This document shows positions 21,425 through 43,756 of a stretch of DNA of 64,000 bases, piece by piece. A program made the position numbers and the translations under genes. Under the pieces are notes generated by a model that was not told where the DNA came from, ran no database searches, and worked only from the letters and a program-made list of their open reading frames with translations. Position 1 is the first letter of the stretch; each line of letters begins with the position of its first letter. The stretch comes from Sporosarcina ureae (GTDB taxonomy: Bacteria; Bacillota; Bacilli; Bacillales_A; Planococcaceae): positions 1,056,001 to 1,120,000 of the forward strand of contig NZ_CP015109.1 in assembly GCF_002082015.1 (NCBI RefSeq), read 5' to 3'.

Positions 21425-21438
21425 AGAAAGCGTTTTCA
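21425..21438 (-). promoter_or_regulatory. Candidate cre (CcpA) site
   Basis: TGAAAACGCTTTCT on minus fits the catabolite-responsive element consensus TGWAARCGYTWNCW at every position. Its centre is about 44 nt upstream of the predicted transcript start, touching the -35 edge. It overlaps the stop codon of the glutaredoxin-like gene. Confidence 0.6.
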
Positions 21439-21669
21439 CTGTTCAATTAATTCCAAAACATCGATATAGCTGATATTTCCGTATGCCAACACCTGTCCTT
21501 CGTGCTCAATAACCGGGATCATCAGCATGTATTTCTCATGGATTTCGTCATCTTCTTCTATATTAATTGTCTGCCACTCGAGTGGATAGTCTTCTGCGAC
21601 TAAATGAAGCATTCGTTCCGCTTCTTCGCATAGCTCACAGTTAGGTTTTGTGTAAAATTGAATTTTCAT
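21436..21669 (-). CDS. Glutaredoxin-like thiol protein (DUF836)
   Basis: A 77-residue thioredoxin-fold protein starting MKIQFYTKPNCELCEEAERML. The CELC pair (residues 11-14) is the redox-active CxxC. The cis-proline is in MLMIPVIEHEG. Short glutaredoxin-family proteins of this type are probable thiol-disulfide reductases; the substrate is unknown. GAGGTGATCC before the ATG gives a good ribosome site. It ends at the cre-like site upstream of cggR, so its transcript may continue into the glycolytic operon. The GAGCG array begins about 95 nt upstream of it. Confidence 0.85.
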   Translation of the reverse strand: MKIQFYTKPNCELCEEAERMLHLVAEDYPLEWQTINIEEDDEIHEKYMLMIPVIEHEGQVLAYGNISYIDVLELIEQ

Positions 21670-21764
21670 TGGTGGATCACCTCGTTTTTACTTATGATGG
21701 CATGGAATGGGTTGTTTTTCTAGGGATTTGCATTTTTTTGTGGAGGTTTGGGTGGTTGGGTTAT

Positions 21765-22635
21765 GAGCGGTTGGCGTGGGAGTATGAGCGGTTACGGGGT
21801 TGCATAGAGCGGATAGCGTGGAACTATGAGCGGTTGGGGGGCGCGATAGAGCGGATCACGCTGTTTATAGAGCGCTAGCGAAGCGACATTGAGCGGATAG
21901 CGTGATTCATTGAGCGCCCCCGCCGCAGTAACTGCGTAAAGTTAGATGGCGCGACAGATACAATGTGAGGAAATACACTGTCATACCGCGGACTTAGAGC
22001 GGATGCGGGGTTTAATAGAGCGGACAACTTGGAATTATGAGCGGTTGGGGAGCGCGATAGAGCGGATCACACTGCTTATAGAGCGCTAGCGAAGCGACAT
22101 TGAGCGGATAGCGTGATACATTGAGCGCCCCCGCCACAGTAACTGCGTAAAGATTAGATAGCGCGACAGATACAATGCGGGAAAACAAACTATCATGCCG
22201 CGGGATTAGAGCGGATACAGGGTTGCATAGAGCGGACAAAATGGAATTATGAGCGGATGTAGGTCGCGATAGAGCGAATCACGCTACGTATAGAGCGGTA
22301 GCGAAGCGACATTGAGCGGATAGCGCGATACATTGAGCGCCTCCCCCGCCACAGTAACTGCGTAAAGATTAGATAGCGCGACAGATACAATGCGGGAAAA
22401 CAAACTATCATGCCGCGCGATTAGAGCGGATACAGGGTTGCATAGAGCGGACAAAATGGTATTATGAGCGATTACGGATCCCGATAGAGCGAATCACGCT
22501 ACGTATAGAGCGATAGCGGACCGACATTGAGCGGATAGCACGATACATTGAGCGCCTTCCCCCACCACAGTAACTGCGCAAAGATAAATAGCGCGGTAGA
22601 TACAATGGAGGAAGATGAGCTGTCATACCGCGAAA
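21765..22635. repeat. Array 1: 29 GAGCG units at 21-nt pitch in four blocks
   Basis: GAGCG occurs at 21765, 21786, 21807, 21828, 21849, 21870, 21891 and 21912, then in blocks starting at 21997, 22209 and 22424 with seven units each. Every step inside a block is exactly 21 nt. Units read like TATGAGCGGTT, ATAGAGCGGAT, ATTGAGCGGAT and close with ATTGAGCGCC. Block ends are followed by a conserved spacer of about 65-70 nt containing the palindrome GCAGTAACTGC and ending near CATGCCGCGG. The block-plus-spacer period is 211-215 nt. One frame reads (Y/I)ERxxxx but has stops in every block. The array lies upstream of the glutaredoxin-like gene and downstream of the TPM gene. No known element name can be given. 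Confidence 0.9.
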
Positions 22636-22653: not shown

Positions 22654-22698
22654 CTAAAAAAAGTGACAATAACTCAAAATTCGAGTCATTGTCACTTT
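22654..22698 (-). terminator. Terminator after the TPM-domain gene
   Basis: AAAGTGACAAT / ATTGTCACTTT hairpin with inner GACTC / GAGTT pairing, followed on minus by a run of T. It is 17 nt after the TPM gene stop. Confidence 0.85.
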
Positions 22699-22714
22699 CC
22701 TGCGAAGCAAGCCA

Positions 22715-23497
22715 TTACCAACTTCGGCCTGCTCCGCCTCCACCACCGGAACCACCGCCGCCGAAGCCTCCAAAGCCTCCGCCGCTACTTCCACCTCCGA
22801 AGCCGCCGCCACCGGAGCCAGGGAAGAATATCGGTCCCACGCTAGATCGGCCACGTGGACCACCGCCTCCGCCTCTTCCTCCGCCGCCGAAAAAGACGCG
22901 GAAGAGTATATAGAGAACGATAATCACGAAAATAAATGATGGCATGCCTACATCTTCTTCACCTTGCTCGGGGTATACGACTGGCAACTCATCGCCTTCT
23001 AGTCCGTATTCTGCAGCTATTTCATTATAGAATGCTTTGTACGCTTCCATAATCGCGAGGTCTGGTTGTTCTTGCCTTAAATAAGGCATCGCTAATTCAT
23101 CAATATAACGTCCTACTTTACCGTCCGGGAGCGCTCCTTCCAAACCGTAGCCGGTCGTTAAATAAAATTTGCGCTTTATACCTGCCGCTTCATCTTTTTC
23201 TGTGGAAACGACGAGCAATGCGCCGTTGTCCATTTCCTTATCGCCTAATTGTAATTCACGAAGCACCCGAAGCGCATAGTCCTCAACCGGTTCGCCTTCA
23301 AGTGAATAGACTGTACGAACAGCGAGTTCTGCTTTCGTTGCCGCTTGCAGGCGCATGCCGTATTCTTCGAGCTCTGCTTCTTGCGTAGGTGATAGAATAT
23401 CTGCATCATCCACGACCACATCTGTAATTGCATGGACGGTCGTAGTACCAGTAAGGGCCACTAGTACGGCTACGATGAACATGCAGACGCGGTTCAT
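22715..23497 (-). CDS. TPM-domain membrane protein with glycine-rich tail (YgcG-like)
   Basis: About 260 residues. It has a signal-like hydrophobic N-terminus (to VHA), a TPM_phosphatase domain (about 25-175: VDDADILSPTQEAELEEYG, DNGALLVVSTEKDE, YLTTGYGLEGALPD) and a membrane helix FIFVIIVLYILFRVFF. The tail is almost only Gly, Ser and Phe. TPM proteins have been implicated in membrane-protein or photosystem repair; the function here is unknown. ATG 23497 overlaps the lemA stop (TGATG). The lemA-TPM pairing is common in bacteria and suggests a shared envelope role. Confidence 0.88.
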   Translation of the reverse strand: MNRVCMFIVAVLVALTGTTTVHAITDVVVDDADILSPTQEAELEEYGMRLQAATKAELAVRTVYSLEGEPVEDYALRVLRELQLGDKEMDNGALLVVSTEKDEAAGIKRKFYLTTGYGLEGALPDGKVGRYIDELAMPYLRQEQPDLAIMEAYKAFYNEIAAEYGLEGDELPVVYPEQGEEDVGMPSFIFVIIVLYILFRVFFGGGGRGGGGGPRGRSSVGPIFFPGSGGGGFGGGSSGGGFGGFGGGGSGGGGGAGRSW

Positions 23498-24075
23498 CAC
23501 TTCGCGTCATCCCCAAAATCGACTGATGGCGGTTGTTGCGCCCCTTCGACCGCTTTGAAGTATTCTTTTTCGTCGAAACCGAAGATCGAAGCGACGATTT
23601 TACCTGGGAATCGTTTAACGGTTCTGTTAAAAACCGACACGACGTCGTTATAATCTTTACGTGCAACGGCGATACGATTTTCTGTACCTGCTAGTTCATC
23701 CATTAACTGTTGGAAGTTTTGGTTCGCTTTTAGGTCGGGATAATTTTCCACTACTACTAATAAACGACTTAACGCGCTCGATAGTTCTGAATCAGCTGCT
23801 GCTAGTTCTTCAGGACCTTGTGCCCCGGCCATTTTACTACGAGCGTTCGCAATGTTTTCAAGCACCTCTTTTTCATGTGAGGCATACCCTTTCACCGTAT
23901 TGACTAAATTCGGAATTAAATCTACTCTACGTTGTAATTGCGTTTCGATCTGCGCGTACGACTGGTCGACATCTTCTTCTAAGTTCACTAACTTGTTGTA
24001 AGAAGGGACGATCATAATCGCCGCGATAATTACTAACACGATAATGGCTATAAGCGGGCCAGCAAGTTTCTTCAT
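23497..24075 (-). CDS. lemA: LemA family membrane protein
   Basis: A 192-residue protein with an N-terminal membrane helix (LIAIIVLVIIAAIMIVPSYN) followed by a helical bundle. LemA marks are DVDQSYAQIETQLQRRVDLIPNLV (given by key residues Q, R, L, P, N) and YNDVVSVFNRTVKRFPG. The family is widespread with no clear biochemical role. A good GAGAGGAG site precedes ATG 24075. It is the first of a two-gene unit with the TPM protein and is divergent from the manganese transporter. Confidence 0.93.
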   Translation of the reverse strand: MKKLAGPLIAIIVLVIIAAIMIVPSYNKLVNLEEDVDQSYAQIETQLQRRVDLIPNLVNTVKGYASHEKEVLENIANARSKMAGAQGPEELAAADSELSSALSRLLVVVENYPDLKANQNFQQLMDELAGTENRIAVARKDYNDVVSVFNRTVKRFPGKIVASIFGFDEKEYFKAVEGAQQPPSVDFGDDAK

Positions 24076-31835: not shown

Positions 31836-31964
31836 GTTGATCTGCGTTCCAGGCGGCGACTCCCGCGGGAAAAGCATGTGCCTTGAGACCCCGCAGGTAG
31901 CGAAGCGGACGAGGAGGCTCAAGCCATGCCCGCAGGAAAGCGTCCGCCTGGAACGCAGATCAAC
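31836..31964. repeat. Large intergenic inverted-repeat element 1
   Basis: A 129-nt palindromic structure between clpP and crh. The outer arms GTTGATCTGCGTTCCAGGCG and their complement at 31945-31964 are perfect over about 21 nt. Inside are CCCGCGGGAAAAGCATG and CATGCCCGCAGG-type arms, CCTTGAG / CTCAAG and a GC-rich loop. The motif GGCGACTCCCGCGGGAAA...GGAAAGCGTCC recurs at 61838-61918. Similar GC-rich palindromes are common between genes of Bacillales genomes; function unknown. The rest of 31755-32070 holds nothing recognisable. Confidence 0.75.
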
Positions 31965-43230: not shown

Positions 43231-43278
43231 ATTGATGGGGTTGGAGTGGGTTGGGTTGAAGGAGATGTAGGTGGTTAT

Positions 43279-43756
43279 GAGCGGTTATGTGGTGGGATTG
43301 ATCGTATAGTCCGGTAGTATGAGCGGATGGTTGTTGTGATAGAGCGGTTAGCCCTTGTGGTAGAGCGGTTATACAATAATTATGAGCGCTTATAGGAATT
43401 ATTGAGCGCCCGAGCAACTACCCTCGATATTATAGGATAATGAGCGGATAAACAGCGTGATTGATCGCATAAACCGCAAGTATGAGCGGATACAGACTAG
43501 GATAGAGCGGTTAGCCCACGCCATAGATCGGAATCGCAACAACTATGAGCGCTTACAGGAATTATTGAGCGACCGAGCAACTACCCTAGATAGTTATGGG
43601 ATCATGAGCGGATAAACAGCGTGATTGATCGCATAAACCGCAAGTATGAGCGGATACGGACCAGAATAGAGCGGACAGCTCCTGCAATAGAGCGGTCAAC
43701 CCTCATCATAGAGCGAAAACACAACAACTATGAGCGCTTACACCAATTATTGAGCA
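43279..43756. repeat. Array 2: 22 GAGCG units at 21-nt pitch in three blocks
   Basis: GAGCG/GATCG centres lie at 43279, 43300, 43321, 43342, 43363, 43384, 43404; then 43442-43567 (seven units) and 43606-43752 (eight units). Steps are 21 nt except the last step of each block, which is 20. Blocks are separated by 38-39 nt. The order of unit types is conserved: TATGAGCGGAT, ATTGATCGCAT, TATGAGCGGAT, ATAGAGCGGTT, then TATGAGCGCTT and the closing ATTGAGCGCCC. Each block ends near GAGCAACTACCC. It uses the same unit and closing form as array 1, 21 kb away. It fills the convergent gap between the amidase and the YvlB-like gene. Confidence 0.9.

Follow-up and report, generated by a model that had tools for sequence, protein, structure and literature searches.

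Examination of a 64,000-nucleotide stretch of the Sporosarcina ureae chromosome (hereafter the window), together with related genomes, revealed intergenic arrays in which an asymmetric word recurs every 21 bp. A conserved word at this pitch, under selection and present in half of the family, suggests that the Sporosarcina arrays are probably an unrecognised putative protein-docking system. The region 21765-22550 contained 30 GAGCG. Of these, 29 fell on a strict 21-nt grid and made up array 1, whose four blocks comprised 8, 7, 7 and 7 cores, as the initial annotation had counted; the remaining copy, at 22050, was off-phase. Core-to-core distances across the block gaps were 85, 86 and 89, and the starts of homologous blocks were spaced 211, 212 and 215, in agreement with the higher-order period of 211-215 nt described previously. 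At 21-nt pitch the window contained 33 pairs and 26 triples of GAGCG, compared with 0 and 0 in dinucleotide shuffles of the window. The features of array 1, its surroundings and array 2 were as follows.

21436..21669, minus strand: neighbour gene outside the element, glutaredoxin-like (PF05768)
21702..21761, plus strand: G/T-rich flank entering array 1, typical for arrays of this genome
21762..21929, plus strand: array 1 block 1, eight units, cores at 21765, 21786, 21807, 21828, 21849, 21870, 21891 and 21912
21930..21993, no strand: array 1 spacer 1, ~65 nt, starting inside the palindrome GCAGTAACTGC (21925-21935)
21994..22140, plus strand: array 1 block 2, seven units (cores 21997-22123) and the off-phase GAGCG at 22050
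22206..22352, plus strand: array 1 block 3, seven units, cores 22209-22335
22421..22567, plus strand: array 1 block 4, seven units, cores 22424-22550, then a fourth spacer copy to ~22635
22658..22704, minus strand: inverted repeat and T-run, terminator-like for the TPM-domain gene, read from sequence
22715..23500, minus strand: neighbour gene outside the element, TPM domain (PF04536)
43276..43749, plus strand: array 2, 17 GAGCG and four GATCG at skipped positions, in a convergent gap flanked by amidase and DUF4097 genes

Array 1 sits beyond the putative terminator (22658..22704) of the TPM-domain gene (22715-23500). Its spacers had been described as carrying a palindrome; exact GCAGTAACTGC was found in the first spacer only (21925), and the remaining spacer copies had just the 9-nt CAGTAACTG in common (22137, 22352 and 22568). 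The proposal that all units face one side of the DNA held within a block but failed between blocks, because gaps of 85-89 bp are not whole turns. Array 2 was less regular than array 1 and mixed GAGCG and GATCG cores. An end module with a 20-nt last step, TATGAGCGCTTacACGAATTwATGAGCG, was present at the 3' ends of many arrays, at unrelated loci, with examples at 43384-43411 of the window and at L180 and L173. At 31836-31964 the window also contained an element that looks dispersed and whose 21-nt inverted arms (GTTGATCTGCGTTCCAGGCGG) match perfectly, and a sequence akin to it (GGCGGCGACTC...CGCCTGGAACGCAG) was located between array blocks in the relative G047.

Analysis of 456 units revealed the profile WWW-GAGCG-(G/C)(A/T)T(A/G), followed by about nine positions that were nearly information-free. 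Since the search itself dictated the core, core variation was taken from skipped grid positions, which carried GAGCA in 16 cases and GATCG in 8; the synonymous GAACG was not found at these positions. Same-strand distances between GAGCG copies were 21 in 320 cases, 20 in 31 and 22 in 4, with 0 at 18 or 24. Among 18 related genomes from two genera, no GAGCG triples were found at pitch 22 or 24, and 17 were found at pitch 20. We also performed an unbiased search for runs of any recurring 5-mer at pitches of 8-60. In a sample partly chosen around known arrays, this search identified 88 intergenic runs at pitch 21, 40 at pitch 42 and only three others; none were detected in shuffled DNA or in 329 kb of 17 other Bacilli genomes. 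The intergenic runs in 400 kb from five congeners, which were not chosen in this way, were again at 21 bp, with one exception at 40.

The chromosome (3.41 Mb) contained 512 GAGCG triples at 21-bp pitch (226 and 286 by strand), so that the rest of the genome held hundreds of triples beyond those of array 1 and of the second array at 43276-43749; a reversed-pattern control at the same pitch in this genome yielded 0 triples. Detailed analysis covered ~659 kb, part of it picked around arrays, and identified 37 array loci; scaling these by triple counts gave an estimate, rather than a count, of ~80 loci in this genome. The arrays were intergenic and often lay ~100 bp beyond gene ends, in either gene orientation. 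Using simple ORF calls, convergent gaps made up 12 of 36 array gaps versus 80 of 479 background gaps. Replication-strand preference, judged by hand on a subset of the matches, looked weak.

To compare core and spacer, we aligned 18 orthologous array pairs. Divergence was 3% in the core, 13% in the preceding triplet and 38% in the spacer, and 11% in the mostly coding flanks. Out-of-register alignment of repeats would favour the core, and the comparison was hence checked on two nearly gap-free alignments of one-to-one orthologous arrays. Here, 1 of 65 core positions differed compared with 35 of 107 spacer positions; the array core is thus under purifying selection. A GATCG variant also remained GATCG in its ortholog.

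A search of Planococcaceae for four units of GAKCR at 21-bp pitch identified arrays in 136 of 261 genomes and 14 of 19 genera. The initial annotation had asked whether spacing is kept while unit sequence varies, or whether the 21-nt pitch is lost with sequence drift. Relatives retained the pitch while spacers, and even the core, drifted. At the array 1 locus, six relatives carried 35, 34, 21, 48, 11 and 14 GAGCG units, and the locus was empty in G047. The pattern was also present in many of 60 congeners, and named Sporosarcina genomes carried units of this type. Congeners without GAGCG arrays carried 21-bp arrays of TAGTCGTTT, AACTGTSA, CGGTGATAA, GGTCATAA and GTCGCYGGTAA, with CTCGC/GGGCGCGG as further congener types; in some congeners no arrays were seen. 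Arrays of the GAGCG kind were also identified in Oceanobacillus, Virgibacillus, Ornithinibacillus and Allobacillus. Such arrays were rare in a class-wide sample, in which 22 of 399 genomes had them. Planococcaceae accounted for roughly half of these genomes, and several of the matches outside this family resembled coding heptads or simple repeats.

Individual relatives showed further variation. The orthologous locus of array 1 in G012 (L235) and G044 (L234) carried an opposite-strand array with largely GATC cores. Arrays with differing recognition words at a pitch of 20-21 bp were present at L237, L240-L242, L249, L252 and L255. G041 contained three kinds of array word within one genome, and because cores differ between its arrays a single protein is not an easy explanation there. 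The Planococcaceae genome G102 carried separate GATCA (AAAGATCA) and GAGCG (TATGAGCG) array families, and near-perfect 21-bp arrays (CAAGAGCGTGGTAGCGTGTAG) were located on contigs C2 and C3 of G462, from another Bacilli family. A 122-bp intergenic tandem repeat was present in the congener G059 (L245, 17875-18154), in which 80 kb contained no 21-bp arrays.

We also examined helical phase; A-tracts have ~10.0 bp per turn versus 10.5 for mixed DNA. AnTm tracts with a length of 4 or more were present in 58% of 20-bp steps versus 8% of 21-bp steps, in a test that is partly non-independent because a homologous array end is common to many of the 20-bp steps; at loci with both step sizes the tract was more frequent in the 20-bp steps at 10 of 14. 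Given the different helical repeats, the direction of this enrichment fits helical-phase compensation and lends support to the phasing idea, although a short A-tract makes up only part of the one-base loss. Phase coherence between blocks was weak (P about 0.03, 11 loci). In this genome, on both sides and over ~80 nt, the strand running into an array was G/T-rich (0.68 versus 0.52 in controls). This enrichment faded about linearly to the array centre and was symmetric under reverse complement; it was evident in close relatives and less marked in other genomes. The G/T-to-A/C gradient was independent of gene orientation, and its origin in transcription of flanking genes is therefore not supported.

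Taken together, the observations underlying our model are that the core is constrained and the spacer is not, that the pitch is strict, that the arrays are dispersed and lie between genes, beyond the gene ends, and that they recur family-wide, with turnover of the core. A strict pitch near whole helical turns combined with a constrained core is what characterizes a phased protein-binding array, and the arrays showed both. We consider it reasonably likely that an array consists of direct repeats, spaced by two turns, to which a putative cooperative DNA-binding protein would bind. Each ~12-bp site, WWW-GAKCR-SWT, would be recognised by a sequence-specific DNA-binding protein, and the 21-bp spacing would place neighbouring molecules on the same face, touching each other. 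The result, within a block, would be a cooperative nucleoprotein segment occupying the inter-operon gap. We infer that protein binding is the source of the constraint and that the phase is sensed through protein-protein contacts; more speculatively, the arrays might serve as operon-boundary (insulation) or nucleoid-organising elements. The earlier reading, which placed pitch above unit sequence and set aside slippage alone, CRISPR and coding, is partly supported, as pitch was kept in relatives and no intact coding frame was present; what did not stand is the single face across blocks. In a broader form that we advance tentatively, at somewhat short of an even chance, the arrays would constitute a chromosome-wide Planococcaceae binding system with outliers in related Bacilli. 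A putative protein family would polymerise or stack on inter-operon arrays, with the pitch set by protein geometry and the word shifting by lineage as arrays and protein coevolve.

Several other explanations account for part of these data. Wrapping sites for gyrase or another topoisomerase, functioning like E. coli BIMEs with phased DNA wraps near supercoil-gathering operon ends, would fit the two-turn phasing and the convergent and inter-operon placement; this is unlikely, as a strict asymmetric 5-bp core is unexpected for anisotropic wrapping and the spacers were without phased composition. Neutral minisatellites, shaped by slippage and unequal exchange and with a common core reflecting recent shared origin only, are suggested by the range of 11 to 48 units at one locus that is empty in G047, and by local duplication visible as 42-bp and ~211-bp higher-order repeats. 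Neutral decay should nonetheless affect core and spacer equally, whereas one-to-one orthologs diverged by 33% in the spacer and 1.5% in the core. Constraint was thus site-specific within the unit, and the 21-bp pitch recurred with other cores; we regard the neutral reading as decidedly improbable, and slippage as sole explanation, which the initial annotation had already ruled out, is disfavoured. We give similarly little weight to a function at the RNA level, in which transcribed arrays would have their units bound or processed as RNA. The motif is strand-asymmetric, and array 2 folded better than dinucleotide shuffles (z -3.1), a control that ignores the composition gradient. When local composition was controlled for in 16 arrays, however, no folding excess was observed (mean z -0.32 and -0.15; array 1 z -0.19), and arrays are located beyond the ends of genes of either orientation. 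No Rfam family matched the arrays, and a search for between-unit covariation revealed neighbouring-base effects only.

An element of a dispersed mobile or CRISPR-like type, writing constant repeats together with new spacers, would explain why an array-end module recurs at many loci and how one locus became occupied independently, even in opposite orientation. A repeat of 12 and a spacer of 9 nt are nevertheless too short for known adaptation, spacers drifted between orthologs by point substitution, and both window arrays had housekeeping neighbours without flanking cas or transposase genes. The arrays had no match in phage and plasmid collections, and matches in viral contigs were returned. 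This makes such an element very unlikely, and the earlier view that the arrays are not CRISPR is borne out. Still more doubtful are Chi-like recombination or repair hot spots, at which G/T-rich inbound strands would favour RecA loading. AGCGG is the B. subtilis Chi and is contained in GAGCGG, inbound strands are G/T-rich on both sides in this clade, and loci undergo turnover in copy number and orientation; but AGCGG was present in only 55% of units, GAGCA and GATCG were retained although incompatible with an AGCGG Chi, and Chi has no need of a 21-bp pitch. Scarcely credible is an origin as coding relics, in which 21 nt would equal one coiled-coil heptad, (I/Y)ER(L/I)xxx. Frame 0 is heptad-like in this species and coding-like GAGCG heptads occur in other Bacilli, but readings in other species were non-heptad and steps changed by ±1, never by ±3. 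For the intergenic arrays, coiled-coil coding was refuted by these ±1 indels, by the absence of GAACG and by frame-0 stops at the chance rate (42 versus 47.7 +/- 5.8 expected), and no intact coding frame was found. Mimicry of the tRNA D-arm (TAGAGCR) was also rejected, as GATCG and TAT/ATT flanks were used equally.

If docking of a protein on these arrays is correct, this family would set aside dozens of intergenic regions in a genome for a nucleoprotein structure undescribed in the open-access literature. The fixed 21-bp geometry with shifting words would then represent a bacterial case of coevolution between site and binder, and, given the inter-operon placement, any role in insulation, in DNA supercoiling or in the layout of the nucleoid could be tested directly.

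Several known systems resemble the arrays in part. Enterobacterial REP/BIME elements are likewise dispersed, chromosomal, intergenic, near operon ends and subject to fast turnover between species; they are, however, palindromic, in short clusters and without a fixed helical pitch, whereas the Sporosarcina arrays are asymmetric direct repeats at 21 bp with up to ~48 units. The unit WWWGAGCGSWTR is asymmetric and contains no imperfect palindrome, consistent with the initial view that these are not REP sequences. Plasmid iterons, direct repeats of ~19-22 bp that bind Rep, are also asymmetric and about two turns apart. They belong to one plasmid replication origin, whereas the arrays, at ~80 chromosomal loci, have random spacers of 9 nt, do not sit at a plasmid origin with a rep gene and had no plasmid match. 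CRISPR arrays similarly alternate a constant with a variable word, but have repeats of ~23-50 nt, foreign-derived spacers and cas genes, in contrast to a 12 + 9 nt unit with point-mutating spacers, housekeeping neighbours and no phage match. Minisatellites and VNTRs share the tandem arrangement, variable copy number and higher-order repeats; unlike them, the Sporosarcina arrays have a constrained core, a drifting spacer and a pitch kept across core changes. AraC/XylS-type operators have direct half-sites 21 bp apart, two turns, on one DNA face. The two-turn spacing is alike, but these operators are pairs at promoters, whereas the arrays are long and away from promoters. No described family accommodated the arrays in these comparisons, and searches of the open-access literature yielded no description of them; in broad terms they belong with extragenic repeats.
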